Assembly: GCA_903910385.1 (NCBI GenBank)
Contig: CAIVZM010000056.1
Coordinates: 1-64,000 of the forward strand
Reading direction: 5' to 3'
DNA from: an uncultured Armatimonadota bacterium
GTDB lineage: Bacteria > Armatimonadota > Armatimonadia > Armatimonadales > Armatimonadaceae
Length of the DNA stretch: 64,000 bases
Position 1 is the first letter of the stretch; each line of letters opens with the position of its first letter. The notes below the pieces were generated by a model that was not told where the DNA came from, made no database searches, and was given only the letters and a program-made list of their open reading frames with translations. The position numbers and the translations under genes are program-made. This document shows, one piece after another, positions 9,120 to 50,096 of this stretch.

Positions 9120-9196
9120 CTGAATAATCATCCCGGAGTGGGACGTCCGCATTACCCCTATTCTGTGAACATAGTTGCCGTGTGGAAGGAATATCG

Positions 9197-10465
9197 ATGC
9201 AAAGAAACCGGACAGCGACAGTCTTGATCTCGCTTGCAATCATCAGCGGATGGAGCGGTGTGAGTAGAGCGGATGATTACCCGCAGTGGCGTGGTCGAGA
9301 ACGGGATGGTCACGCACAAGAAAAAGGACTATTGAAAACCTGGCCCGAAGGCGGACCGAAGCTTCTCTGGAAGATCGAGGGAACAGGCGAAGGACATTCC
9401 ACCCCATCCGTTGCGAAGGGGCGAATCTACGGAATGGGTCTTCGAGACGGTGCGGAAATCGTCTGGGCTCTGGATGAAAAGACAGGGAAAGAAGTCTGGG
9501 CGAAAAAAATCGCCGATGAGATCCGTCTCAATGCGCCGCAGGGGGGATTCGGTTCCCGGGCGACGCCGACCGTCGATGGCGACCGAATCTATACGCTCGG
9601 TGTTGGCGGGGAACTGCTCTGCCTGAAGACAAAGGACGGAGAAATCGTCTGGCGCAAAAATCTGGTCATGGACTTTGGCGGGAATGTTCCGTCCTGGGGC
9701 TATAGCGAATCTCCTCTGGTAGATGGTGACAGAGTCATCGTGACTCCGGGAAGCGGGACTGCCACTATAGTGGCCCTGAACAAAAAGACGGGCGACACCC
9801 TCTGGAAATCACAGGTCGCCGACGGTAACGGCGTTTCCTACTCCTCCGCTATCGCCGCGAACTATGCTGGAAAGCGGCAGTATATCCAGTTCCTCACCGG
9901 GGCGGTTGTCGGAGTGGACGCCAGCACGGGCGCCACCTTGTGGTCATTCGCTTCTCCTGCGTGCCGACAGGGGATCAACTGTTCCACGCCGTTGTTTCAA
10001 AATGGTATGGTCTTTGCCGCATCCGCCTACCAGAACGGGGGGGCATTAGGAAAACTGTCCCAAAAAGAAGGCAAGATTGCGGTTGAAGAGGTCTATTTCT
10101 CCAAAGAAATGCAGAACCATCATGGCGGCATGGTGCTGGTGGATGGGTACCTTTACGGCTTTGACAACAGTAACCTTACCTGTCTGGAGTTTGCGACGGG
10201 CAAGATAATGTGGACGAACCGTAGCGTTGGAAAGGGTTCTGTCGCTTACGCGGATGGACTACTGTATTGTCGTAGCGAACGCGGACCAGTGGCGATTGTA
10301 GAAGCGAATCCGAAAGAATATGTCGAGAAGGGGCGATTGGAACAGCCCAACCGCAGTTCCGCCCCCTCCTGGCCGTATCCCGTCATCGCAAATGGCAAAC
10401 TTTATTTGCGTGATATGAATGCACTCCTCTGCTACGATGTCACGAATTCAGGAGGAGGGAAATAA
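9197..10465 (+). CDS. Secreted PQQ-like beta-propeller protein 2
   Basis: First gene of the long same-strand propeller cluster. The ATG at 9197 is preceded by GGAAGG at a good distance; the in-frame GTG at 9182 would put the ribosome site inside the gene. The 422-residue product has a signal peptide (ISLAIISGWSGVSRA) and the entry motif DDYPQWRGRERDGH, then repeated blades (WALDEKTGKEVWAKKI, CLKTKDGEIVWRKN, LNKKTGDTLWKS). It overlaps the next propeller gene by one base, which implies translational coupling. It is outer-surface or periplasmic; the ligand is unknown. Confidence 0.9.
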   Translation: MQRNRTATVLISLAIISGWSGVSRADDYPQWRGRERDGHAQEKGLLKTWPEGGPKLLWKIEGTGEGHSTPSVAKGRIYGMGLRDGAEIVWALDEKTGKEVWAKKIADEIRLNAPQGGFGSRATPTVDGDRIYTLGVGGELLCLKTKDGEIVWRKNLVMDFGGNVPSWGYSESPLVDGDRVIVTPGSGTATIVALNKKTGDTLWKSQVADGNGVSYSSAIAANYAGKRQYIQFLTGAVVGVDASTGATLWSFASPACRQGINCSTPLFQNGMVFAASAYQNGGALGKLSQKEGKIAVEEVYFSKEMQNHHGGMVLVDGYLYGFDNSNLTCLEFATGKIMWTNRSVGKGSVAYADGLLYCRSERGPVAIVEANPKEYVEKGRLEQPNRSSAPSWPYPVIANGKLYLRDMNALLCYDVTNSGGGK

Positions 10466-11592
10466 TGGCGGATTGGCCGCAGTGGCGTGGTCCTAATCGA
10501 AATGGCATTTCGGCGGAAACAGGACTCCTGTCCTCATTTCCCGCTGGCGGACCCCGCAAACTATGGTCGGCGAATGTCGGTTCCGGGTTTTCGACGGTCG
10601 CTATCAGCAAGGGACGAGCATTTACTCTGGGCAACTATCAGGAACAGGACTTCGTTTCCTGCCTGAACGCCCTGACCGGTAAAATTATCTGGGCATACAA
10701 GTATCCGCAGGGAGCGGGGGACTATAGCGGCCCACGCGCCACCCCCACCATCAATGCGGACAAAGTTTACACCTTTAGCCGCGAAGGTCTGGCGTTATGT
10801 CTGGATGCCGGGACGGGGAAAGTCCTGTGGCAAAAGAATATTGCGCAGGAAATCCGCTCTTCCGCCCCACGGTGGGGATATGCAGGCTCGCCGCTGATCG
10901 TGGGTAATCTTGTTATCTACAATGTCGGGACGGGGGGAGCGGCTCTGGATAAAAATACCGGGCGTACCGTCTGGACTTCTGGCGGCGAGGTGAGCGGGTA
11001 CGCTTCCCCGGTCGCCTTCACGGCGGGCAGCAAGAGCGGCGTGGCGATCTTTGGTAAGGACAGCCTCAAGGCGGTCGATCCGGGGAGTGGGCGAATCTTG
11101 TGGCAGTACCCCTGGCAGACCTCCTATGACGTGAACGCCGCCGCCCCGATCTTCTCCGGCGATTCCGTTTTCATCTCCTCCAATTATGGTAAGGGCGGTA
11201 GCGTCCTGCGTATCACCGGAGGGAAGCCGACGCCCGTCTGGGAAAACCGGAGCATGAAAAACCACTTTAACTCCTGCGTTCTGGTCGGCGGGACACTGTA
11301 CGGAAACGATGAAAATACCCTGAGGGGCATCGATTTCGCTACTGGTGCGGAACGCTGGAGCATGCGAGGAATGGATAAGGGCGGCCTGATCGCTGCGGAT
11401 GGCAAACTCATTGCATTGACCGGGCGCGGCGAGTTAACTCTGATTCGCGCCGTCCCTTCAGCGTTCACGGAGATCGGACGCGCCAAAATCCTGAGCGGCG
11501 ACTGCTGGGCGCATCCCGTTCTAGCGAATGGCTTGCTCTATTGCCGTAATCATGAAGGCAACCTTATCTGTCTGGATATGCGCAGAAGTTAA
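10465..11592 (+). CDS. PQQ-like beta-propeller protein 3, no signal peptide
   Basis: A 375-residue propeller that begins directly with the entry motif (MADWPQWRGPNRNG). No hydrophobic export signal precedes the first blade, unlike its neighbours. The start is secure: AGGAGGG lies 5-6 nt upstream, and TAATG joins it to the previous stop. Blades carry CLNALTGKIIWAYK, CLDAGTGKVLWQKN and LDKNTGRTVWTSG. Either it works in the cytoplasm, or it was once the second half of a double propeller together with protein 2 and is exported another way. The first is the simpler reading. Confidence 0.87.
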   Translation: MADWPQWRGPNRNGISAETGLLSSFPAGGPRKLWSANVGSGFSTVAISKGRAFTLGNYQEQDFVSCLNALTGKIIWAYKYPQGAGDYSGPRATPTINADKVYTFSREGLALCLDAGTGKVLWQKNIAQEIRSSAPRWGYAGSPLIVGNLVIYNVGTGGAALDKNTGRTVWTSGGEVSGYASPVAFTAGSKSGVAIFGKDSLKAVDPGSGRILWQYPWQTSYDVNAAAPIFSGDSVFISSNYGKGGSVLRITGGKPTPVWENRSMKNHFNSCVLVGGTLYGNDENTLRGIDFATGAERWSMRGMDKGGLIAADGKLIALTGRGELTLIRAVPSAFTEIGRAKILSGDCWAHPVLANGLLYCRNHEGNLICLDMRRS

Positions 11593-11643
11593 CGTATACA
11601 CTTACAATGGAAACTTCATCGGTAATCGTACCGGTGAAGGAAC

Positions 11644-13989
11644 GTGAATAGCGGCGTCTTGAAGGCATTGAGCGCCTGTAACGATATGAACATGCGAATA
11701 ATAACACGACGATTTTCCAACGGCGCCGGAGCGCTGGCATTGCTGGCGCTGGCGGCGTCCGCCGCCTCGGCGCAGGTGCGGGGATGGACGGATTGGCGCG
11801 GGCCGGAACAGACCGGAGTTTCACGCGAGACCGGACTGCCTGACAAATGGACGCTGAGCAATGGCAAGGAAAAAGGCGTCAACGATCTCTGGTCTTACCC
11901 CTTGTCCGGCGGAGGGACTCCGGTCGTCGCCAACGGTAAGGTGTACGCCTTCGGGTACTCCGGTCAGGGAGCGGATTTACAGGAAGCCCTCGTCTGTCTG
12001 GATGCCGAAACGGGCAAGAAGCGCTGGGAGCGGCGTTTCAACGATTACCTCAGTGATATCACCTATGACCGTTATGCAATCGGAAGCCCCTGTATCGACC
12101 CGGAAACGGGTAATGTGTATGTCCTGACTTCGGCGGGCGTCTTTGCCGCATTTACCGCGGATGGAAAACCGATATGGTCGCATCCGACGATGGAGGCCCT
12201 CGGTCGACTGACCTTCACCAACGGTCGTACGGGCGGCCCGGTCATCGAAAAAGACCTGGTCATTATTCGCGGTATCACTTCCAACTGGGGCGGTGAAGGC
12301 GCGGCGATGGACCGGCTTTACGCGTTCGATAAGAAAAGCGGTCAGATGGTCTGGTCGTGCAGTCCGGGTATCGCTCCGAAAGACAACTCTTTCGCCCGCC
12401 CGGTTTTTGCATACCGTAATGGCAAGCGCGTATTTTACACGGGCGCGGGCGACGGGAGCATGATCTGTGTCAATGCCCGCACGGGAGAACCCGTGTGGCG
12501 ATATCCGATTTCAGCGGGTGGCATGAACGCCTCCGTGATCCTGTACAAAGATACGGTGATCGCGATCCATGCGGATGAAAGTCTGGATTCCTCAACGGCG
12601 GGACGCATGACGTCCGTAAGAGTGAATGCCGAACCGAAACCCGCAGAAACCGGTCCTCCGATACTGGATCGGTCGGCGGAAGCCTGGCGCAATGATGAAC
12701 TGGCGGCGATTTCCAGTTCTCCTGTCCTCGTGGGAGACAGGATTTACCAGACGGTCAAAACAGGGCAACTCGACTGTATCAATGCCGCAACGGGCGAACC
12801 GATCTGGAGATACAAATTAGCCCCGGATCAACTGCATGCCTCTCCCCTTTATGCAGATGGAAAACTGTATGTCCCCATGCAAAATGGTACGTTCTTCATC
12901 GTTCGCCCGAATGATAAAGGCGTCGAGGAATTAGCGAAAGTGCAACTTGCGGGACGCTGTATCGGCGCCCCATCCGCATGGAACGGTAAGGTCTATGTCC
13001 ATTCCACGGAACGCCTGTATTGTTTCGGACGCAAGGGGAATAATCCCGGATTGCCACCGACCGTCGCTGAGGAGCCATACCCCAAGGCAGGGCCGACCGT
13101 CGCATTGCAAATTATTCCTTCGGAAGTGGCGCTGCGCCTCGGTGAAAAGGCGAAGTTTATCGTGCGCGGTATCGACTCCAACGGCTTTCCCACAGAAACG
13201 TTCGATACCGCAAAAGTCACCTGGGCAAAGTATGTTCCGCCAACCGCCCGCGTCAAGTCCGAAATGCAGGGCTCTTTCGATGCGAAGGGCGAACTCCTCG
13301 CGCAGGGGCGATCTGCAGGTGCATGGATGGGAGCGATAAACGGTATGAAAGGGACGATCCGTGGGCGCGTTCTGGCGCCGCTCCCGTATACCGAAGACTT
13401 TGAGAGTTTCGCCTTAACAGAGGCAAACCCCACCGCGCCTGATAGCAAATTCGCTTATCCGCCATTGCCCTGGATTGGGGCGCGGTTCAAGTTCGATATC
13501 GAAGATTTAGGCGGTAATAAAGTCTTCGCCAAAACGCTGGATAATATCGCTTTTCAACGTGCTACCGTCTTCTTCGGAGCGCCGGATGAGAAGAATTACA
13601 CCGTAGAGGCTGATGTAATGGCGGATGGTAGTCGTCGTAACCTCGGTACGGTTGGCGTTATCAACCAGCGTTATTACATCGTCCTGACTGGGAACGCGCA
13701 GGAACTGGAAGTCAACTCCAATCAGGAGCGTATCAAAGCGGTCACGCCGTTCAAGTGGCAACCCAAAACCTGGTATCGCTTGAAAACGCGCGTCGATGTG
13801 GCGAAAGATGGTTCCGGAGTCATTCGTGCCAAGGCATGGAAGAAGGGCGATCCGGAACCTGCCGCCTGGACTATCGAGGTTCCGCATAAGACAGCGCATC
13901 AGGAAGGCGCCCCCGGTCTGTTTGGCTTCGCGCCGCAGAGTTTATACAAGGTCTACATCGACAATATCTCGGTGACCCCGAACCAGTAG
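11644..13989 (+). CDS. Secreted PQQ-like propeller 4 with Ig-like and jelly-roll C-terminus
   Basis: At 781 residues this is the largest propeller of the cluster. A signal peptide (GALALLALAASAASA) precedes the entry motif WTDWRGPEQTGVSRETG. Propeller blades run to about residue 465. From about residue 480 an Ig-like segment (VALQIIPSEVALRLGEKAKF) follows. The last 200 residues, from EDFESFAL, resemble a concanavalin/DUF1080-type beta-jelly roll as seen in sugar-binding modules. The GTG at 11644 has AAGGA close upstream; ATGs at 11686 and 11692 are alternatives that still keep the signal peptide. It could be a surface carbohydrate-binding protein, which is an inference from the last module only. 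Confidence 0.85.
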   Translation: MNSGVLKALSACNDMNMRIITRRFSNGAGALALLALAASAASAQVRGWTDWRGPEQTGVSRETGLPDKWTLSNGKEKGVNDLWSYPLSGGGTPVVANGKVYAFGYSGQGADLQEALVCLDAETGKKRWERRFNDYLSDITYDRYAIGSPCIDPETGNVYVLTSAGVFAAFTADGKPIWSHPTMEALGRLTFTNGRTGGPVIEKDLVIIRGITSNWGGEGAAMDRLYAFDKKSGQMVWSCSPGIAPKDNSFARPVFAYRNGKRVFYTGAGDGSMICVNARTGEPVWRYPISAGGMNASVILYKDTVIAIHADESLDSSTAGRMTSVRVNAEPKPAETGPPILDRSAEAWRNDELAAISSSPVLVGDRIYQTVKTGQLDCINAATGEPIWRYKLAPDQLHASPLYADGKLYVPMQNGTFFIVRPNDKGVEELAKVQLAGRCIGAPSAWNGKVYVHSTERLYCFGRKGNNPGLPPTVAEEPYPKAGPTVALQIIPSEVALRLGEKAKFIVRGIDSNGFPTETFDTAKVTWAKYVPPTARVKSEMQGSFDAKGELLAQGRSAGAWMGAINGMKGTIRGRVLAPLPYTEDFESFALTEANPTAPDSKFAYPPLPWIGARFKFDIEDLGGNKVFAKTLDNIAFQRATVFFGAPDEKNYTVEADVMADGSRRNLGTVGVINQRYYIVLTGNAQELEVNSNQERIKAVTPFKWQPKTWYRLKTRVDVAKDGSGVIRAKAWKKGDPEPAAWTIEVPHKTAHQEGAPGLFGFAPQSLYKVYIDNISVTPNQ

Positions 13990-14086
13990 CGCAACGGGAA
14001 AGCCAAACATGAAATTTGCGCCTCTGGAGAGCGCCTTGCGCTCCCGGAGGACATTCAATAATGTAATCGTAGCCGCATCGAAATAG

Positions 14087-15802
14087 ATGAGAACAACCAT
14101 GAACCGAAAATATATAGCGTTCTGCGCCGTGATTGCGGCGGGCGTTTCTGCCGCGCCGGTAATCAGCCATGCGGCGGATTGGCCGTTCTGGGGGCGTTCG
14201 GCTTCCCGGAATATGGTCAGCGAAGAAAAAAATACGCCCGCCACATGGGAGGCTGGAAGATACAAATCGGGTAGCGAAGAAATTGACATGGCGACGACAA
14301 AAAACGTCAAATGGATCGCCAAGTTAGGCTCGCAGTCCTACGGGAACCCGACCATCGCCGGGGGCAAAATCTTCATCGGGACGAATAACGAGTCACCCCG
14401 TGACCCCCTCTATAAAGGCGACCGCGCTGTACTGCTCTGCCTTGACGAAAAAACGGGAAAGATGCTCTGGCAACTTCCGATCCCCAAATTAGGGACCGGT
14501 AAGGTCAGCGATTGGGAGTTTCTGGGGCTTTGCTCCTCACCTGCGGTCGAAGGCGACCGAGTTTATATCGTCACCAACCGCAATGAAGTTATGTGCCTCG
14601 ATGTCAACGGGCAGGCGAACGGGAACGATGGCGATTTCAAGGACGAAGCGAAGTACCTGACCGATAAAGGACAGAAACCGCAGGTATTAAAGCCCACGGA
14701 CGCCGATATCATCTGGAAATTCGATATGCGTGAAGAACTCGGCGTCTTCCCACACAATATTACCAACTGCGCCCCGCTGATTATCGGCAATAAGATTGTG
14801 GTCACCACATCCAACGGGGTCGACTGGACCCACACCAATATGCCCAATCCGAAAGCTCCGGCGTTGTGTATGCTGGATAAGAATACGGGCAAATACCTCG
14901 GGGAGGAAGCGTCCGGCGTTTCCTCGCGCACCCTGCACTCGAACTGGTCTTCCCCGGCGGGCGGAAAAGTCGGTGACAGAGATGTCATTCTATTCGGCGG
15001 CGGCGATGGTTTCCTCTATGGTCTCGATACCGCAACCGACGATAAAGACGGCGTCAATGTCCTTAAAGAACTCTGGAAGATCGATGCCAACCCGGCGGAT
15101 CGTCGCATGAAAGATGGCAAGCCGCTCAAGTACGCTACCTATGCAGGCCCCAGCGAAGTTATTGCGACCCCGGTCTATTACAACAATCGCGTTTATGTGC
15201 CTATCGGACAGGACCCGGAGCATGGCGAAGGATTGGGTAACTTCATCTGCATCGACGTCGCCACGGGCAAGAAGGTGTGGAATAACGACACGCTCCATCG
15301 ATCCCTTTCCACTCCGGCGATTGCCGACGGTCTGATCTATGTCTCGGACTTCAGCGGCTTTATCCATTGTCTGGATGCGGAGACGGGAAAAACCGTCTGG
15401 AAATTCGATACCCGAAGCCATATCTGGGGATCGCCGCTACTGGCGGATGGCAAAGTCTATGTCGGAACCGAAGATGGTGACCTGATTATGATAGCGGCAG
15501 GACGCACCATGAAAGAACTCGGTCGCGTCGATATGCGTTCGCCTGTGTATGCATCCCCCGTCATCACCAACGGGACCCTGTATATCGCTACCCCGACGCA
15601 TCTCTATGCCATCGGCGGTTCCGCCGTCGCCTCCGCATCTCCTGCCGCATCGCCTGCTAAAAAAGCGCAGAAGCAGGAATCTGTAGCCCAGATCGAGGCG
15701 CGGATGGCGGAGAACGCCCGGAAATTGCGTCAAGCGCATGATGTGCTGGTCTCGTGTAAGGCGCACGGGATATCAGAATACCGCCCTATCGCACAGCGGT
15801 AA
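14087..15802 (+). CDS. Secreted PQQ-like beta-propeller protein 5
   Basis: A 571-residue exported propeller: signal peptide IAFCAVIAAGVSAAPVISHA, then the altered entry motif ADWPFWGRSASRN. Blades include CLDEKTGKMLWQLP, CIDVATGKKVWNND and CLDAETGKTVWKFD. It is longer than proteins 2 and 3 because of inserts around residues 180-300, among them DWTHTNMPNPKAP. The C-terminus ends in an Ala/Pro/Ser linker and a short helical, charged tail (about residues 525-571). The overall length approaches that of quinoprotein alcohol dehydrogenases, so of all propellers here it is the one most worth testing for cofactor binding; I do not see the vicinal-cysteine pair of those enzymes. ATG 14099 is an alternative start. 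Confidence 0.86.
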   Translation: MRTTMNRKYIAFCAVIAAGVSAAPVISHAADWPFWGRSASRNMVSEEKNTPATWEAGRYKSGSEEIDMATTKNVKWIAKLGSQSYGNPTIAGGKIFIGTNNESPRDPLYKGDRAVLLCLDEKTGKMLWQLPIPKLGTGKVSDWEFLGLCSSPAVEGDRVYIVTNRNEVMCLDVNGQANGNDGDFKDEAKYLTDKGQKPQVLKPTDADIIWKFDMREELGVFPHNITNCAPLIIGNKIVVTTSNGVDWTHTNMPNPKAPALCMLDKNTGKYLGEEASGVSSRTLHSNWSSPAGGKVGDRDVILFGGGDGFLYGLDTATDDKDGVNVLKELWKIDANPADRRMKDGKPLKYATYAGPSEVIATPVYYNNRVYVPIGQDPEHGEGLGNFICIDVATGKKVWNNDTLHRSLSTPAIADGLIYVSDFSGFIHCLDAETGKTVWKFDTRSHIWGSPLLADGKVYVGTEDGDLIMIAAGRTMKELGRVDMRSPVYASPVITNGTLYIATPTHLYAIGGSAVASASPAASPAKKAQKQESVAQIEARMAENARKLRQAHDVLVSCKAHGISEYRPIAQR

Positions 15803-23346: not shown

Positions 23347-23430
23347 GCGTGCGTATACGATAGGCGGCATCGTCATGGCGCAGGCGAGTGCAGAAGCTTT
23401 CGCCACAGGAACAACAGGAGCGACTGGAAA

Positions 23431-24774
23431 ATGAAGGCGAGAACGATTTTCGGTGTCCTCTATGCAATATCTGCGTTGCTAATGAGTGGAGCGGCATCAG
23501 CGCAGGATTGGCCGCACTGGCGAGGACCCAATCATAACGGTGCGACCATAGCGAAGGGACTGCCGGAGAAATTTTCCCCGACCCAGAGCGTCAAGTGGAC
23601 GGTAGATTTACCGGGACCTTCAGCAGCGACGCCCGCCATTGTGGGCGACAATATCTATGTATCGAGCGTCGACGAAAAAGCCAACGCACTGCTCGCCCTC
23701 TGTTTCGATCGTAAGACCGGAAAACTGAAATGGCGTCAATCTGTAGGAAGCGGGTATCGTCCGGCGAATCAGGGCGAGGTTATTCGAATGGACGACCGTA
23801 GCAACTATGCCTCGCCGTCTCCTATCGCCGATACGAAGCGTGTTTTCTTCTTTTACGGTAATGGCGACCTTGCCGCCTTTACGCCCGGCGGCGCGAAACT
23901 CTGGGCGCGTAATATTCAGAAAGAATATGGCGACTTTGCGTTCGGCTGGACTTTCTCCAGTAGCCCGTTACTGTACAACGGGACGCTTTATCTGCAAATA
24001 CTGCAGCGTGATGAACCTGTCAGCGGGCGCGGGAAGAACAATGCCCCTTCCTTCCTGCTTGCCTTGCGCCCTGATACTGGTGCGGAACTCTGGCGTCAGG
24101 AACGAAAAAGCGATGCTCATATGGAGTCACGCGAGGCGTTCAGTAGTCCTATCCCCTACACGCATAAAGGTCGTAAGGAAATCATCATTGCAGGCGGTGA
24201 TGTCATTACTGGGCATGACCCGTCCAATGGCAAAGAACTCTGGCGATGGGGAACATGGAATGAAGGCCATCGTGAGACTTACTGGCGTCTGGTTCCGTCA
24301 CCGGTTGCCGGAGCTGGCGTCGCTCTGGTCGCCGCGCCGAAGCGGCAACCCGTATATGCCGCCAAACTGGGCGGGAACGGCGATCTGGGCGGAGCGGGAC
24401 TAGCATGGAATAGCGATATTCGTGGCCCGATATCCTGCGATGTGCCAACCCCCTTGTTTATGGACGGCCGTTTCTATGTGGTCAGCGATGTCCGAAAAGC
24501 CGTGTCTTGTGTCGAACCGGAAACGGGAAAAATCCTGTGGACGACGCCGATACCAGGTCGCTCAGCTTGCTGGTCGTCTCCTACAGGCGCCGATGGCAAA
24601 ATCTATTCCATGAATCTGGACGGGACTGTCTTCGTTTTTGACGCCGCGACCGGGCGGTTACTTGCCGAGAACCCGATGGCGCCTGATGGCGCAGACCTTC
24701 GTTCCAGTATCGCGGTTGCCTATAACAATCTGTTTATCCGGACGAATGACAAACTCTATTGTCTGGGAAAGTAG
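23431..24774 (+). CDS. Secreted PQQ-like beta-propeller protein 6
   Basis: A 447-residue exported propeller: signal peptide (LYAISALLMSGAASA), then QDWPHWRGPNHNGATIAKGLPEK-type entry and blades such as FDRKTGKLKWRQSV, LRPDTGAELWRQE and VEPETGKILWTTP. It is the first of three propellers that close the cluster and starts 84 nt after the alcohol dehydrogenase with an AGGAG site. Sequence and size are closest to protein 1 at the far end of the region, as judged by the entry motif and the shared 'gdlg.aglaWnsdirg' type segment before the last blades (compare [16 protein letters not shown] in protein 1). Confidence 0.9.
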   Translation: MKARTIFGVLYAISALLMSGAASAQDWPHWRGPNHNGATIAKGLPEKFSPTQSVKWTVDLPGPSAATPAIVGDNIYVSSVDEKANALLALCFDRKTGKLKWRQSVGSGYRPANQGEVIRMDDRSNYASPSPIADTKRVFFFYGNGDLAAFTPGGAKLWARNIQKEYGDFAFGWTFSSSPLLYNGTLYLQILQRDEPVSGRGKNNAPSFLLALRPDTGAELWRQERKSDAHMESREAFSSPIPYTHKGRKEIIIAGGDVITGHDPSNGKELWRWGTWNEGHRETYWRLVPSPVAGAGVALVAAPKRQPVYAAKLGGNGDLGGAGLAWNSDIRGPISCDVPTPLFMDGRFYVVSDVRKAVSCVEPETGKILWTTPIPGRSACWSSPTGADGKIYSMNLDGTVFVFDAATGRLLAENPMAPDGADLRSSIAVAYNNLFIRTNDKLYCLGK

Positions 24775-24777
24775 TTC

Positions 24778-26079
24778 ATGATGTGGTGTGATTTCAGGAC
24801 GGATAAGAGCGGTAGGAAAACCGCTTATGCAGCTCTTTATGCCGGAGCGTTCCTTGCCCTGTCGGATGCGCTGGGGACGAACGCCGCCTATGCACAGGAT
24901 TTCCCCCAGTGGCGCGGAGCGAAGCGGGATGGCGTCGTGACCGGGTTTGTCGCCCCATCAGCATGGCCGGAAAAGCTGGAGCAGGGATGGCGGATCACGG
25001 TTGGGGAGGGGCATTCCTCGCCGATTGTCGCCGGGGACTCCGTCTATATCTTTGCACGCGAAGGCGACAATGAGATCATGCGCCGCCTGCGTCTTTCGGA
25101 CGGTAAGGAAATCTGGCGAGACTCCTACCTCGCTCCCTATGTGATGAACCCGGCAGCCTCCGGACATGGTAAGGGGCCGAAAGCGACTCCTGTCTTATCC
25201 GCCGGTCACGTTTTCACCTTTGGCATCAGCGGAATTCTGACCGGGTACGATGCTTCGAGCGGAAAAATCCTCTGGCGTAAAACCTTCGCCCCACCTTATA
25301 AAACGAGCGCCCCCGACTTCGGTACGACTTCTTCTCCTCTGGTAGAAAAGAACCTCGTCATCGCCCATGTCGGCGGGACAGAAGATGGGGCGTTGACCGC
25401 CTTTGATGTGAAGACCGGCGCGGAACGCTGGAAGTGGTCGGGCGATTCCCCTGCCTACGCTTCCCCTATTGCAGTAACGCTGGATGGCGTCCGGCAAATT
25501 ATCACGCAGACCAAAGCGAATTGCGTTTCTCTGGATGCCGCTACTGGAAAACTGTTGTGGAAAATGCCGTTTACCACGCCTTATGACCAGAATTCGATTA
25601 CCCCTGTGGTATCGGGTCCACTGGTGATCTTTGGCGGTCTGCAAAAGCCGACATTCGCCATCAAGCCAACACGGGACGGCGCAAATTGGAAAATTGAAAA
25701 TGTCTGGGAAGCGCGAGACGTTCCGCTTTATATGAGTTCCCCGGTTCTGAACGGTCTGCTCTATGGCATGTCTGCGAAGCGATCCGGTCAGATGTTTTCT
25801 CTCGATCCAGCGACGGGGAAAGTTCTCTGGACGGACGAGGGGCGCGTGGGGGACAATGCCTCACTATGGAGCGCCGGTTCGAACATTCTAGCGCTAACGA
25901 CAAATTCCGATTTGTTCGTTTATCAGAAAGCGGGCAATACTCTCAAGCCTGTGGCGAAGTACGCCGTCGCAGAAACGCCCGTCTGGGCAAGCCCGGCAAT
26001 CGTTCGCAATGGATTTCTGGTCAAGGATGAGAAAAACCTTACCCTGTGGCAGATTCCCGTTCGGAGTGTGTCACGGTGA
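24778..26079 (+). CDS. Secreted PQQ-like beta-propeller protein 7
   Basis: A 433-residue exported propeller. A long basic N-region and hydrophobic core (AALYAGAFLALSDALG) precede AYAQDFPQWRGAKRDGV. Blades show YDASSGKILWRKTF, FDVKTGAERWKWSG and LDAATGKLLWKMP. It starts 3 nt after the stop of protein 6 and overlaps the start of protein 8 (GTGA), so the three are probably co-translated. No catalytic residues are evident; a ligand-binding or assembly role outside the membrane is possible. Confidence 0.9.
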   Translation: MMWCDFRTDKSGRKTAYAALYAGAFLALSDALGTNAAYAQDFPQWRGAKRDGVVTGFVAPSAWPEKLEQGWRITVGEGHSSPIVAGDSVYIFAREGDNEIMRRLRLSDGKEIWRDSYLAPYVMNPAASGHGKGPKATPVLSAGHVFTFGISGILTGYDASSGKILWRKTFAPPYKTSAPDFGTTSSPLVEKNLVIAHVGGTEDGALTAFDVKTGAERWKWSGDSPAYASPIAVTLDGVRQIITQTKANCVSLDAATGKLLWKMPFTTPYDQNSITPVVSGPLVIFGGLQKPTFAIKPTRDGANWKIENVWEARDVPLYMSSPVLNGLLYGMSAKRSGQMFSLDPATGKVLWTDEGRVGDNASLWSAGSNILALTTNSDLFVYQKAGNTLKPVAKYAVAETPVWASPAIVRNGFLVKDEKNLTLWQIPVRSVSR

Positions 26080-44044: not shown

Positions 44045-45321
44045 TCGCCGCCCTCTTCCTCACCCTCAGGCTTGGTGACGCCATTGAAGGGACCGACGGC
44101 GGCGATAGCGTATTCCGCTGGATTTTCGGGGAAAATGGATCCCGCCACGCGGTGGACATCCGCTAACGTCACTTTGTCGATCAATGCTGTGACTTCAGAC
44201 ATCGGAATAACGCGGTCATAATAGACTTCCGATTTTCCAATCCGGTTCATGCGTGAAGACATCGATTCCTGCGCCATGATCAATGCGCCCCGGAATTGAT
44301 TCTTCGCCCGATTAAGTTCGGCTTCCGTCACGCCATCACGGCGTACTTTATCGAATTCTCCCTGCGCCAGTTCAAGACACTGTTCGTAGGTATCCGGGGA
44401 AGTGCCCCCGTAGGCGACAAAGTACCCGCCTTCGCGGTGCGTTGCGGAGTACGAACCGACGGAATAAGCAAGCCCGCGCTTCTCGCGGATTTCCTGAAAC
44501 AGGCGGGAGCCCATCGAACCGCCCAGAATGGCATCCATCAACGCCAGAGCGTAGCGATCCTCATCGAACTGTCCGTAGCCTTTGGTGCCGATACAGAAAT
44601 TGACCTGTTCGGTCGGTCGGGCGTACTCGAACCTTTTGGCGGTTACGGGCGGTCGGGCGTCGCCAGGAGTAGGAGAACCGCCTTTGAGGTCGCCCAGAGC
44701 GTTACTTACCAGATCGACCACCTGAGCATGTTCCATATTGCCCGCGACAGAAACGATGACGCTTCCGGGGCCATAGTACTTGCTCATGTAAGAGCGCAAT
44801 TCTTCGGGCGTCAAGCCATCAACCACTTCCGCCAGCCCGATAACGGACTTACCGAGCGGATGATCGGGGAAGATCGTCTCCGCGAACAGATCGTGCACCA
44901 GATCATCCGGGTCATCTTCGCGGCGCTTGATCTCTTCCAGAACGACCTTGCGTTCCCGTGTCGTCTCTTCCGGATCGAACAGGGAATGGGCGTACATATC
45001 GGTGAGGATATCGACTGCCAGCGGCAAGTGCTCGGAGAGCGCTCGCGCATAGTAGCAGGTGTATTCCTTGTCCGTGAAGGCGTTCAGGTAACCCCCAACC
45101 GCATCCATATCATCGGCGATCTGCTTGGCGGACGGACGCTTTTCCGTGCCCTTGAACAGCATGTGTTCCAGAAAGTGGGAGATGCCGCGATGGGAATCAT
45201 CTTCGTAGCGTGATCCGGTAGCGACCCAGATACCGACCGACACCGACTGCACATATCCGACATGTTCGGTAACCACCCGCACACCGTTGGGCAGGATCGT
45301 TTTCTTAATATCTTCAATCAT
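44041..45321 (-). CDS. M16-family zinc metallopeptidase
   Basis: A 426-residue peptidase of the pitrilysin/processing-peptidase family. The inverted zinc motif is HFLEH (His49, Glu52, His53 from the chosen start), with the third ligand Glu in VVLEEIKRREDDP. The C-terminal half has the usual MSSRMNRIGKSEVYYDRVI. The start is taken at ATG 45321 because homologues begin '..kttLpNGlrvv.e'; a longer frame reaches 45426 but its extra 35 residues look random. M16 genes beside dap genes are also known elsewhere, so this neighbourhood is not special. It could process peptides of the SKFDPIP genes just upstream, though nothing shows it. Confidence 0.92.
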   Translation of the reverse strand: MIEDIKKTILPNGVRVVTEHVGYVQSVSVGIWVATGSRYEDDSHRGISHFLEHMLFKGTEKRPSAKQIADDMDAVGGYLNAFTDKEYTCYYARALSEHLPLAVDILTDMYAHSLFDPEETTRERKVVLEEIKRREDDPDDLVHDLFAETIFPDHPLGKSVIGLAEVVDGLTPEELRSYMSKYYGPGSVIVSVAGNMEHAQVVDLVSNALGDLKGGSPTPGDARPPVTAKRFEYARPTEQVNFCIGTKGYGQFDEDRYALALMDAILGGSMGSRLFQEIREKRGLAYSVGSYSATHREGGYFVAYGGTSPDTYEQCLELAQGEFDKVRRDGVTEAELNRAKNQFRGALIMAQESMSSRMNRIGKSEVYYDRVIPMSEVTALIDKVTLADVHRVAGSIFPENPAEYAIAAVGPFNGVTKPEGEEEGGE

Positions 45322-45341
45322 AAAAAAAGAAGCCCTCACGC

Positions 45342-45358
45342 TGTCATTATTAATGACA
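45342..45358. promoter_or_regulatory. 17-bp inverted repeat upstream of the M16 gene
   Basis: TGTCATT-ATT-AATGACA is a perfect 7-bp dyad with a 3-nt centre, ending 21 nt before the M16 start. Its size and position fit an operator for a dimeric repressor of the M16-dapB-kinase transcript. Role inferred. Confidence 0.4.
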
Positions 45359-45464
45359 ACGCAAGAGCATCTTACCGTATCCTTAGCCCTCGCGCCGTGA
45401 GAAGAACAACTCGTCCTCCGATGCAAAGGAGCTAAAAGCTATTGAGAACGAACTGATTTTCTCG

Positions 45465-46010
45465 TTAGACCACTTCGATTACCGCAACAATAGCGGCGCC
45501 TGCATAGCCCGGATCGCTGTTGTCTTTATCCGTAAAAGTAAGTTCGACAAGAACATCCTGACCCTTCCACCAGATACTTGCCGGAATAGTTAATGGTTCC
45601 AGAGATATAGGGGATAGGGTTATATCCAGTGAATAAATATAACCCGCGCTCGATTGTCCGATGAAGATAGGAGTCACATCCTCACCTTCCTGCGTTAATA
45701 GGCTCTCCCATCCACCCGGGTTGAACCGACGGACGCTATAATGTAGGAGATCGTCCCCGTCCAGTTCTTCTGGCAGTACAAACACGCACTCTGCGTGATA
45801 AGAAACTACGCTCGTTTCAGGTTTTGCTCCTTCAGGCAGTTTAATTCCTGGAAAGAGCAAGTCGGCGCTGGATTTTGGCGTTACTGGAATAGGATCAAAC
45901 TTGGAGGTCGCCGCGAAATCAGAATCCGCTAACCCTGCAAAGCGATTGCGCTGGCGTTTCGGTTGGTCGGTCACCTGATTGTCGGGCGTTGCTGAAGATG
46001 CATCATCCAT
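45465..46010 (-). CDS. SKFDPIP-motif protein 1 (unknown function)
   Basis: I do not recognise this 181-residue protein. The polar, Asp/Ser/Arg-rich N-terminus has no signal peptide. At residues 36-42 it has SKFDPIP, shared exactly with the next two genes. A Pro/Ser-rich linker follows, then a beta-rich domain (ECVFVLPEELDGDD, GYIYSLDITLSPISLEPLTI). The end, VLVELTFTDKDNSDPGYAGA, aligns with the end of protein 2 (VVIILTFRASDGKFKIGSA). GGAG stands 7 nt before the ATG. The DNA looks more AT-rich than the adjoining dap genes. The three tandem copies suggest duplication of one ancestral gene. Confidence 0.75.
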   Translation of the reverse strand: MDDASSATPDNQVTDQPKRQRNRFAGLADSDFAATSKFDPIPVTPKSSADLLFPGIKLPEGAKPETSVVSYHAECVFVLPEELDGDDLLHYSVRRFNPGGWESLLTQEGEDVTPIFIGQSSAGYIYSLDITLSPISLEPLTIPASIWWKGQDVLVELTFTDKDNSDPGYAGAAIVAVIEVV

Positions 46011-46094
46011 TTCTTTACTCCATTAGTTTCTGTGCTTGACTAAGCGCTCGTTTATGTAACCATTAAGGTTTTTTATGAAAGTTGTAATTCTGTC

Positions 46095-46568
46095 CTAATA
46101 AGGAGGAAATACGACTGCAGATCCAATCTTGAATTTTCCGTCACTGGCTCTGAAAGTCAGAATGATAACGACAGGACATCCTGAAGCAAAAGTAGCGGGC
46201 AGATTGTTAATTTGCCAGGCTCTTGTTGGTCCTCCAACAAAGGTCGCCGTTCCTGTAGAAATCAGCGCCCCGTTCAGGGAAGTTCCATCAAAGTTCAGAG
46301 GCAAGGCAACATAAGTGATGACCGCTCCGGTTGCAGGCGCGATACTAAAAGTTCCTTTAGCCGTCCATGGCGCAGGGACTGCCGCTATGTCGATATTGTC
46401 TGGTTGCTCCCCCGGTTCAAGTTGTGGGTCAGCGACGGATAAACCTGGAGTTACCTGAAGATTGGAAGGGATAGGGTCAAACTTTGACACGATATCTCTG
46501 ATAAACGGATCGCCTGCGACACCGGGCTTTTCGTAATCAGATGTGGTATCTGGTGACAAATCACTCAT
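46095..46568 (-). CDS. SKFDPIP-motif protein 2 (unknown function)
   Basis: A 157-residue paralogue of protein 1. From ATG 46568 (AAGGAAA about 7 nt upstream; the frame opens earlier at 46616 without a better site) the N-terminus is MSDLSPDTTSDYEKPG. SKFDPIP is at residues 28-34, then a Pro/Glu-rich linker (TPGLSVADPQLEPGEQPD). The C-terminal 100 residues are beta-rich with many Thr, Val, Ala and Gly (GTFSIAPATGAVITYVALPL), ending in IGSAVVFPPY. There is no export signal or membrane segment. The fold looks like a small beta-sandwich, but I know no family for it. Confidence 0.75.
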   Translation of the reverse strand: MSDLSPDTTSDYEKPGVAGDPFIRDIVSKFDPIPSNLQVTPGLSVADPQLEPGEQPDNIDIAAVPAPWTAKGTFSIAPATGAVITYVALPLNFDGTSLNGALISTGTATFVGGPTRAWQINNLPATFASGCPVVIILTFRASDGKFKIGSAVVFPPY

Positions 46569-46658
46569 AATAGTTTCCTTTTTCTCATTCCCGTCATTAA
46601 CGGGATTCGTTGTCAAATGCTATAGTGCACTCTATTGACGCGAAACGTCCGCTTTTTA

Positions 46659-47069
46659 CTACAAGGCTACCAGTTGACCGGCGCAGAATCCGACGAAGAA
46701 TCTCTGCTCCTCGGGGTCTCCGGGATGCCAATTGGGATTGCGAATCCATACTGTCACGCGGACGGAGACGGCCTCCGTTGCGTATATGGTCAGGGTAAAG
46801 TTATTGCCGCTCGCCGGACTGATATTTCGGATAAACGTAATGCGACGACTGCCATTATGGTCGCCGGCATTATCGACATCCTGAAGATCGATAGCATGAA
46901 CGCCGACTCGAATCGCGCCACGTGGAACATCACGCCCCTGAGTATCGATCAGGAAGGACGCCTGTCGTGTACGGTCGCCGAAGGGGCGATTTATGACTGT
47001 TCCTGGCCCTACGGGTGGACTACCCGGAATGGGACGGATCGGAATGGGATCAAACTTACTGATTGCCAA
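46659..47069 (-). CDS. SKFDPIP-motif protein 3 (unknown function)
   Basis: The third and most divergent member. TTG 47069 is preferred as start: AGGAG lies exactly 7 nt upstream, giving MAISKFDPIPIRPIPGSPPV, a 136-residue protein with the motif at its very N-terminus. A GTG at 47147 would add 26 residues and place the motif at residue 30, as in the paralogues, but its ribosome site is only 1 nt away. After a Pro-rich stretch the protein is beta-rich (ASFLIDTQGRDVP, RRITFIRNISPASGNNFTLTIY). The C-terminus (VTVWIRNPNWHPGDPEE) differs from the other two. Confidence 0.65.
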   Translation of the reverse strand: MAISKFDPIPIRPIPGSPPVGPGTVINRPFGDRTRQASFLIDTQGRDVPRGAIRVGVHAIDLQDVDNAGDHNGSRRITFIRNISPASGNNFTLTIYATEAVSVRVTVWIRNPNWHPGDPEEQRFFVGFCAGQLVAL

Positions 47070-47393
47070 TCGAATTCTCCTGTTAACAGACAGAGAATGC
47101 GCGGGAAACTCCGTAACTGTAGTCGTGAAGTCCGCTTCAGCAAACACTCTCCTGTAATAAATTCAAATCCGTTTAGAAAAGCGAGGCGATCTTTATTAAT
47201 CGCGAGGATGGGTGAAGTCTCCGCATTGAGACATTGCTCTGATTTATCAGGCGAAGCACAACAGGTGTTGAGGGAAACGCAGGTGATTTCTTTTCCATTT
47301 GAGACCTTCCTTTATTCATAAACGAGGCTGACAATTATCTTCTGATGGTTAAGAACAAATGTTATAAAGGAGAGCGAACCAGATAGTCAGGCG
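47070..47393. other. Gap between the regulator and SKFDPIP gene 3
   Basis: Apart from the 41-codon frame, this 324-nt stretch is AT-rich and holds no terminator I can see. It probably contains the promoter of the three SKFDPIP genes, but no convincing -35/-10 pair stands out. Confidence 0.4.
47173..47298 (-). CDS. Possible 41-residue peptide upstream of the SKFDPIP genes
   Basis: An ATG at 47298 has a strong ribosome site (AAGGAAGG, 6 nt spacing) and opens a 41-codon frame: MEKKSPAFPSTPVVLRLINQ and a basic C-terminal half (RRLHPSSRLIKIASLF). It does not contain SKFDPIP. It may be a short peptide or leader for the three genes below it, or the decayed start of a fourth copy. The strength of the ribosome site is the only evidence. 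Confidence 0.35.
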   Translation of the reverse strand: MEKKSPAFPSTPVVLRLINQSNVSMRRLHPSSRLIKIASLF

Positions 47394-50096
47394 TTAACCA
47401 GCCGCTCGTTCCATAACTTGCTCTATCTTCATCAGGCTACCCAGCTTTTCCTTTTGCTTGAACACTTCTTTTCCGATTTTTTCACAGATTATTTGTATGA
47501 TTTTGTTCAATTCGTTGCTATCTTCCTGATTCCTTGGTGACTCTGTATGTAAACGCATGGCGGAAGCGGCGCCGTACAGGACGGCGGCATCGTCCCAGCG
47601 TTCTTCGCCGGCGACAATTATCGTCAGGAACTCTACCGCTTCTGTGATACCGTCCCGGTACTCAATCTGATGGCGAATCCGTAGCGATTCCATGACCGCT
47701 TCCCGGGCTTTTACCAATTCGCCCATGCCTCTCCAACCGCTGGCCATATTGTAGAGAGCCTGTGCACCTGCGAGGGAGTTGCCCATTCGCTGATGGATTG
47801 CCAGCGATTCCTGAGAGAATTCGATAAGTTTCTGAAATTCATTCCGTCGCTCTGCCAGCACGCCCAGATTATTGAGAACGCTGGCGGTTTGCGCCTCGTT
47901 TCCAATCCGGCGATATCCGGACAGGCTATCCATGAGGTACTGCTCGGAGGCATCCAGATCCTGTTTATAACCAGCGATGCTGCCTAAATTACTTTGCAGC
48001 TTGGCAATAGCAGCCTCGTCATTCAGACTTCGATACAGAGCGATCGCTTCTGAAAAACGGTGTTGCGCTTCCTCAAGACGACCTGCCTGCCAGTAGAGGA
48101 TTCCGGCGGCGTTCCGAGCCTCGGCCCGAAGCGAGGCAAGAGTGATAGGGGACTGGTCGTCAACCGAAAGAAAGTGTTCGACCCATTGAATGCCTTCCCG
48201 CAGATAACCCCGCGTTCGCCAGTACCAGAATAGAGAGGAGATCAGGGTCAACCCACAGGTGATATTTGTGCAGGAGGCGAAACAGGATCGTAGATTTTCC
48301 ATTTCCCTGTCCGCCATCTGCATCGCAATGCGCATGGCATCGCCGTGACGTTTGCCGGTCAGGTCTTGTTTCAGGGATGTCGCCCACTGGATGAAGTAAT
48401 CGCGGTGCTTTGTGCGAAGTTCCTCGTACTCGCTGCGCTCTTTCAGGATTTCCAAAGCGAATTCCCGTATGGTTTGTAGGAGATGGTAGCGTTTGCCGTT
48501 AGGCTCGTCCTCTGTCTCAATCAACGATTTTCTCAGCAGACGTGTCAGAGAGGACAGGGCATCATCTACGGGGGCGCCTTCACATACTTCCTCCACTGCT
48601 TCCAGAGTAAATCCGTTATTGAAGATCGAGAGGCGGCGTAGCAGAACCCGTTCCGCTTCGGTCAACAAGTCCAGACTGTACGCGATAGTCGCTCGCAGAG
48701 TACGGTGGCGGTCGGGCAGACTGCGGTCATCGCCGGAGGATGTCGGGAAACGGTATCGTCCTTTGTGATGCATGCGCTCTTCCATCTGTTCCGGGGTCAG
48801 CGCATCCGCCCACGAGGCCATCAGTCTGACCGCAAGGGGCATTCCATCGAGCGTACGACAGATACGGGTGACCGCAAAGACATTTTCGCTGTTAATGGAG
48901 AACGAGGGCGACTTCAAGCGGGCGTACAGTACGAACAGGCGCACCGAATCATAAGCCATCAGCGCTTTTGGATTGGTCAATTCCTGAGGAGGGACAGGAA
49001 GGGGGCGCACGGGGTAGAGCGCTTCCCCGCTAATACTCAGCGATTCCCGACTGGTCGCCAGAATACTGAGATCTTTGCAGGACTGAAGCAGACCAGAGGC
49101 GAACTCCGCCGCCGCCGCCACCAAATGCTCGCAATTATCCAGAATCAGCAGGACACGATGATGCAATAGATACTCTGTGATTTGTTGCGCCAACGGCGCA
49201 TCGCCTTCCTGCTCAATATTCAATGTGGAAGCGACAACCCGTCCGATGGATTCGGCTTCATTACTGTGCGACAGATCAATGAACCAGACGCCATCGGGAA
49301 ATTTGCGTAAAAAACGGTCTGCAACATGCAATGCAAGCCGTGTCTTGCCGCAACCGCCCGCTCCCGTCAATGTCACCAGAGGATAGGAAAGGACACGCTG
49401 GCGAATTTCCTCCGTCTCCATTTCTCTGCCTACCAAATGCGCTAACTGGTGGGGCAGATTATTAGGGACGATATCGGTCGGGCGTAAAGGAGGGAAATTG
49501 GCGGGAAGGTCGGGGTGCGCTATCTGAAAGAGGCGGTCAGCAAGATCAATGTCTCGCAATTTATGCTCGCCAATATCCTGCAGGACAGCTCCCTCAGGAA
49601 GCCGGGAACGCACCAAATCCGCCGTGTCGTTGGTAATAATGATCTGACCGCCATGAATGGTTTCAACCAGACGGGACGCCTTCGTCGGAGTCAGACCGAT
49701 ATAGAGACCGTTTCTTTCCTCCGTCGCGCCGGCATGGATTGCCATCCGCACCCGGAGCGGAATCGCGTTAGCCTCATCAACAAAAACAGTCTGTAATACG
49801 CGTTGCGCCTCAAATGCCGCCTGGACGGCTGCGGAGGGATCTGTGAAGGCGACTTTGACTCCATCGCCGACCGATTGGAAGAGATCGCCACCAAAGGTTT
49901 CCGTTGCCTTCTGGAGAATATCGTCGTGACGCGCATGGGCGCGACGCATGCCCTGGGGATAGTGTTGAGCATGACCTGTGCTGTTTTCGATGTCCGTAAA
50001 GAGGAACGCGATGATGCGATCATTGCTGGCATCGGTGTCTGTGCCTCTGATCGCGCCTCTTTCTGGCTCTATGTCAGTTTCAATATCCGCATCCAT
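47394..50096 (-). CDS. Cyclase-like / NB-ARC ATPase / TPR regulator
   Basis: A 900-residue cytoplasmic regulator. Residues about 27-195 form a class III nucleotide-cyclase homology domain (FLFTDIENSTG with Asp35, SVGDGVKVAF with Asp78). The transition-state Asn of the usual 'VNxAARL' is Thr138 here (PTKASRL), so catalysis is doubtful. Residues about 220-480 are an NB-ARC/STAND ATPase: VGREMETEE, P-loop GAGGCGKT (245-252), Walker B LLILDNCEH (Asp320), SILATSRESL sensor. From about 600 on there are TPR-like repeats (ARNAAGILYWQAGRLEEAQ, ASVLNNLGVLAERRNEFQK). No DNA-binding domain is seen. It is likely an ATP-switched signalling scaffold for the neighbouring SKFDPIP genes. Confidence 0.9.
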   Translation of the reverse strand: MDADIETDIEPERGAIRGTDTDASNDRIIAFLFTDIENSTGHAQHYPQGMRRAHARHDDILQKATETFGGDLFQSVGDGVKVAFTDPSAAVQAAFEAQRVLQTVFVDEANAIPLRVRMAIHAGATEERNGLYIGLTPTKASRLVETIHGGQIIITNDTADLVRSRLPEGAVLQDIGEHKLRDIDLADRLFQIAHPDLPANFPPLRPTDIVPNNLPHQLAHLVGREMETEEIRQRVLSYPLVTLTGAGGCGKTRLALHVADRFLRKFPDGVWFIDLSHSNEAESIGRVVASTLNIEQEGDAPLAQQITEYLLHHRVLLILDNCEHLVAAAAEFASGLLQSCKDLSILATSRESLSISGEALYPVRPLPVPPQELTNPKALMAYDSVRLFVLYARLKSPSFSINSENVFAVTRICRTLDGMPLAVRLMASWADALTPEQMEERMHHKGRYRFPTSSGDDRSLPDRHRTLRATIAYSLDLLTEAERVLLRRLSIFNNGFTLEAVEEVCEGAPVDDALSSLTRLLRKSLIETEDEPNGKRYHLLQTIREFALEILKERSEYEELRTKHRDYFIQWATSLKQDLTGKRHGDAMRIAMQMADREMENLRSCFASCTNITCGLTLISSLFWYWRTRGYLREGIQWVEHFLSVDDQSPITLASLRAEARNAAGILYWQAGRLEEAQHRFSEAIALYRSLNDEAAIAKLQSNLGSIAGYKQDLDASEQYLMDSLSGYRRIGNEAQTASVLNNLGVLAERRNEFQKLIEFSQESLAIHQRMGNSLAGAQALYNMASGWRGMGELVKAREAVMESLRIRHQIEYRDGITEAVEFLTIIVAGEERWDDAAVLYGAASAMRLHTESPRNQEDSNELNKIIQIICEKIGKEVFKQKEKLGSLMKIEQVMERAAG

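Follow-up and report, generated by a model that had tools for sequence, protein, structure and literature searches.

Three consecutive genes on the minus strand of a contig from an uncultured Armatimonadota bacterium each encode the peptide SKFDPIP, once and without a substitution, within flanks that have diverged. What holds this peptide constant, and what might it do? The locus lies in the 64,000-nt stretch of DNA analysed here (the window), and the initial annotation, which had described three tandem genes with this exact motif, was right in this and in their coordinates. The features follow one another on the minus strand in this order, ending at the ATG of an M16 peptidase gene (45321):

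47394 to 50096, minus strand: STAND regulator of 900 aa, cyclase-like/NB-ARC/TPR, probably the first gene of the unit
47173 to 47298, minus strand: uncertain 41-codon ORF with an SD, between the regulator and protein 3, read from the sequence
46659 to 47069, minus strand: orphan protein 3, 136 aa from a TTG (MAISKFDPIP...), with AGGAG at 47081-47077, 7 nt before the TTG
47040 to 47060, minus strand: SKFDPIP codons of protein 3, AGT AAG TTT GAT CCC ATT CCG
46095 to 46568, minus strand: orphan protein 2, 157 aa, ATG start, with SD AAGGA at 46580-46576
46467 to 46487, minus strand: SKFDPIP codons of protein 2, TCA AAG TTT GAC CCT ATC CCT
45465 to 46010, minus strand: orphan protein 1, 181 aa, ATG start, with SD GGAG at 46021-46018, 7 nt before the ATG; laid out as a disordered N-tail, SKFDPIP, a linker and a C-terminal domain
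45885 to 45905, minus strand: SKFDPIP codons of protein 1, TCC AAG TTT GAT CCT ATT CCA
45332 to 45368, minus strand: strong hairpin of 17 pairs with a T-run (within 45321-45373), a candidate terminator that abuts the M16 peptidase ATG

An SD can be read at the identical 7-nt spacing ahead of all three small genes. Protein 2 starts at ATG 46568 and not at TTG 46616. For protein 3 the TTG at 47069 is the most likely start, because it is preceded by AGGAG at the 7-nt spacing also found in proteins 1 and 2; the SD spacing of the alternative start, GTG 47147, is poor. The locus is AT-richer than its surroundings, as first proposed, with a G+C of 0.49-0.51 in 1-kb windows between 45 and 48 kb compared with 0.55-0.58 over most of the window, and the GC3 of the small genes is 0.41-0.54 against 0.58-0.65. 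Their codon bias is weak, with a per-codon score of about 0 to 0.06 versus 0.12 for the regulator. This combination of lowered G+C and weak codon bias is what would be expected of young or acquired genes. The weak bias would also suit spurious ORFs, as would a competing plus-strand ORF across protein 3, although in protein 1 the top codon score lies in the annotated frame. That the ORFs are spurious or the shared motif a coincidence is nevertheless extremely improbable, given their proper SD sites, the synonymous-only change described below and the computed chance expectation of about 2e-10 for an exact 7-mer common to all three proteins. For SKFDPIP in the whole proteome the computed expectation is about 0.001.

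The codons of the motif show that the SKFDPIP peptide is under purifying selection. Over its 21 nt the three copies differ pairwise at 4, 5 and 7 sites, and every one of these differences is synonymous (serine TCC/TCA/AGT, aspartate GAT/GAC/GAT, first proline CCT/CCT/CCC, isoleucine ATT/ATC/ATT, last proline CCA/CCT/CCG), with both the TCN and the AGY classes of serine codon in use. If the changes were placed at random, the peptide would stay intact with p about 1e-3 for 4 changes and 1.6e-4 for 5 changes. The peptide, and not the DNA, is therefore the conserved unit. We also considered a DNA repeat or a recent gene conversion, which does not fit synonymous differences at 4, 5 and 7 sites; the 20-nt repeat underlying the motif is just 80-85% identical between copies. 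These data support the original proposal that the motif, set in diverged flanks, serves for recognition or interaction and is maintained by selection.

What surrounds the motif has changed almost freely. The N-tails are acidic to neutral, and the linker described as Pro-rich is so to a moderate extent, proline making up 14, 14 and 21% of the 28 residues after the motif. No hydrophobic segment, signal peptide or membrane helix was found in proteins 1-3, which are therefore probably cytosolic. Outside the motif the three have diverged beyond pairwise detection: the C-terminal domains are not detectably alike (shuffle p 0.28-0.86, hhalign probability below 1%), and proteins 1 and 2 share a weak C-terminal pattern, GxxVxxxLTFxxxD...GxAxV. 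Proteins 1-3 may form one paralogous family. No significant match was obtained for any of them in the Pfam, NCBIfam, PHROGs and PADLOC profiles or among the PDB sequences, so the early remark that no family is known with this signature holds across every library searched. The three genes are thus real, their motif is selected, and their products are orphan proteins without a known family.

The annotation had further assigned each protein a beta-rich C-terminal domain, which is supported by a usable model in protein 2 only. The C-terminal 95-100 aa or so of protein 2 were modelled by AlphaFold2 from the single sequence as all-beta with seven strands; the best of the five models had pLDDT 73 and pTM 0.63. 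Since the remaining four reached a pLDDT of just 38-53, we take this fold as a moderate result. The domain is predicted to be an Ig/FnIII-like beta-sandwich; Foldseek returned many Ig/FnIII-like domains, none of them specific (best E 1.1e-3, TM about 0.4-0.6), as for a probably general fold without a specific relative. For protein 1, the model from the three-row alignment had pLDDT 40 and its fold is not usable. A beta-sandwich in protein 2 would agree with SKFDPIP having a structural role within the protein itself, for instance as an N-terminal strand or clasp that packs on the beta domain or as a link between subunits, with no external partner, and paralogues often retain one structural core. 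We consider this unlikely. The domain on which such an element would pack is not detectably conserved among the three proteins, which makes an external partner likelier than a structural function within a single conserved fold.

Is the motif used elsewhere? Relatives of proteins 1-3 were sought in a further 290 genomes from the phylum, where matches were at chance level only, and in viral contigs, scanned with each of the three proteins; neither search found one. Searches of phages and plasmids with protein 1, and of plasmids also with the cassette DNA, gave no match. A GTDB scan for [AI][TVI]SKFDPIP produced 14 pattern matches and no relative. The exact DNA pattern for SKFDPIP with a TCN serine matched 98 GTDB stretches, and all 80 readable matches lay in proteins with no relationship to these or in short open frames with no resemblance, which rules against SKFDPIP as a widespread signature; among 100 relatives the motif was matched twice, in an unrelated protein or out of frame. 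Outside this locus, then, its position is random and the proteins that contain it are unrelated, the very outcome that the initial annotation had named as counting against such a signature. This random placement indicates that SKFDPIP is private to this locus. The core KFDPIP was not found in the literature searched.

Four further proteins with KFDPIP are encoded in the same genome, where 0.02 would be expected per proteome by chance. Three carry it as CHDHKFDPIP and look like the DUF1549/DUF1553 type; the stretch is presumably part of that family's own motif. The fourth is the redox regulator Rex, which begins MSIMLKFDPIP (L058:6370-7086; own genome C65:118369-119085), and the tail bearing KFDPIP is absent from the Rex of relatives. 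The occurrence in Rex may be chance, or Rex may use the tag as well, which would hint that the same partner recognises it.

Cargo proteins are often built with different C-terminal domains behind one N-terminal motif that all of them share. From its N-terminal position SKFDPIP could accordingly direct the loading or export of three different cargo domains by a secretion or injection machine, or target them to a protein shell. The layout of proteins 1-3 resembles that of such cargo, and they have no Sec-type signal. However, Rex is the only other protein of the genome with the motif core close to its N-terminus, and none of the genes next to the cassette was recognised as belonging to a secretion system or a shell, which leaves this explanation with a low probability. 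Encapsulin targeting peptides and secretion signals are likewise single short motifs in otherwise different proteins, but no gene for a shell or for secretion was recognised next to these three, and SKFDPIP is not known in such systems. A second likeness is to the FxSxx-COOH/HaaA cyclophane RiPP systems (FxsT, HaaT), where a TPR/NB-ARC protein likewise neighbours small genes that share a short conserved motif. Here, in contrast, the regulator scores far below the NCBIfam equivalog cut-offs (55.0/300 and 84.9/1125 bits), and no maturase-like gene was seen around the cassette on reading the ORFs, of which proteins 1-3 and the regulator were scanned with HMMs. The small precursors of these systems have a C-terminal core, whereas here the motif lies towards the N-terminus of proteins that are 136-181 aa long, at least one of them with a predicted folded domain.

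Several features suggest that the small genes belong to one transcription unit with the regulator: the same strand, the equal 7-nt SD spacing and the T-run hairpin after the last gene. Against this stands the gap between regulator and protein 3, 324 nt long, or 246 nt if the GTG start is used. The hairpin may terminate the small-gene unit or regulate the M16 peptidase as an attenuator; no Rfam match was found at the locus. The M16 gene next door and the position of the motif between a variable N-tail and the linker raise the possibility of a processing site, where a protease cutting at or next to SKFDPIP would release the beta domain at the C-terminus or a peptide from the N-terminus. Yet the M16-dapB-kinase block is retained in most of the family and order members examined, and the small-gene cassette was not found beside it in these relatives. 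Since the block is kept where the small genes are absent, the M16 peptidase does not serve them specifically. In protein 3, moreover, probably just three residues precede the motif, so that a cut there would remove almost nothing, and processing appears to us a doubtful explanation. The genes upstream of M16 vary among the seven relatives examined, and this side is therefore a variable junction.

The large NB-ARC/TPR regulator reported beside the small genes was confirmed by Pfam (NB-ARC 35.7, cut-off 23.5; TPR_12 51.9, cut-off 30.1). It clearly belongs to the AfsR/STAND-type regulators with a class III cyclase-like domain, which are expanded in the phylum, although no other member examined has small SKFDPIP proteins alongside. 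The Pfam score of its cyclase-like domain is below the cut-off. The metal-binding Asp residues are retained (FTDIE, VGDG), but PTK stands where most relatives have LNR/VNR; because the catalytic Asn is thus replaced by Thr, the domain has probably lost its activity and would be a pseudo-cyclase. The regulator family is large, with members in 123 of the 291 genomes of the phylum at E <= 1e-60. In one genome of the same bacterial family (G005), 93 first-look cyclase-like/NB-ARC/TPR candidates were counted versus 12 in the genome of the window, a strong lineage expansion.

It had been asked whether copies of the motif cluster with such regulators. The association does not generalise: no SKFDPIP tandem set was found beside regulator homologues at the approximately 40 loci of relatives examined, and the two nearest homologues in the same genome (31-35% identity) have no SKFDPIP neighbours. 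The link to the regulator may therefore be mere adjacency. A further proposal, which we regard as quite unlikely, is that SKFDPIP is a ligand tag read by the neighbouring NLR-like STAND protein, the beta domains serving as interchangeable bait or effector modules in a private sensor-ligand or sensor-effector system.

We tentatively favour, at somewhat short of an even chance, a lineage-specific operon of three fast-diverging paralogues in which SKFDPIP docks on one common partner, the STAND protein being a possible candidate. Docking is favoured by the presence of one exact 7-mer in three neighbouring genes, whose codons for it differ by synonymous changes alone. The regulator would be followed in this transcription unit by three small soluble proteins, whose genes may have been born by duplication and be co-transcribed. 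In each protein a probably disordered N-tail would lead into the invariant SKFDPIP, followed by a linker that contains proline and by a C-terminal beta domain that diverges fast. The motif would act as a short linear docking element through which three domains, each with its own specificity, are brought to the same partner. Judged by adjacency, the TPR/NB-ARC protein of the same unit would be the most economical candidate for that partner.

One short peptide has here been held fixed while the rest of three neighbouring proteins diverged beyond recognition. The case is a clean one, and SKFDPIP probably marks the site at which these orphan proteins make a functional interaction. A bait of seven residues offers a direct handle for finding the partner, and if this were the STAND protein, it would reveal what one member of a large, unexplained family of armatimonad regulators senses.

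Two other groups of paralogues were noted. Near one regulator homologue, two tandem small paralogues (L094:13213-13509 and 13838-14167) share NPLETP, GTLRYAKA and RRLDWYELGVI. Within the window itself, at 9128-15799 and 23347-26076, several neighbouring genes have N-terminal motifs of the DWPQWRG/DWPHWRG type and, judged by reading alone, are probably PQQ/BamB-like beta-propeller paralogues.
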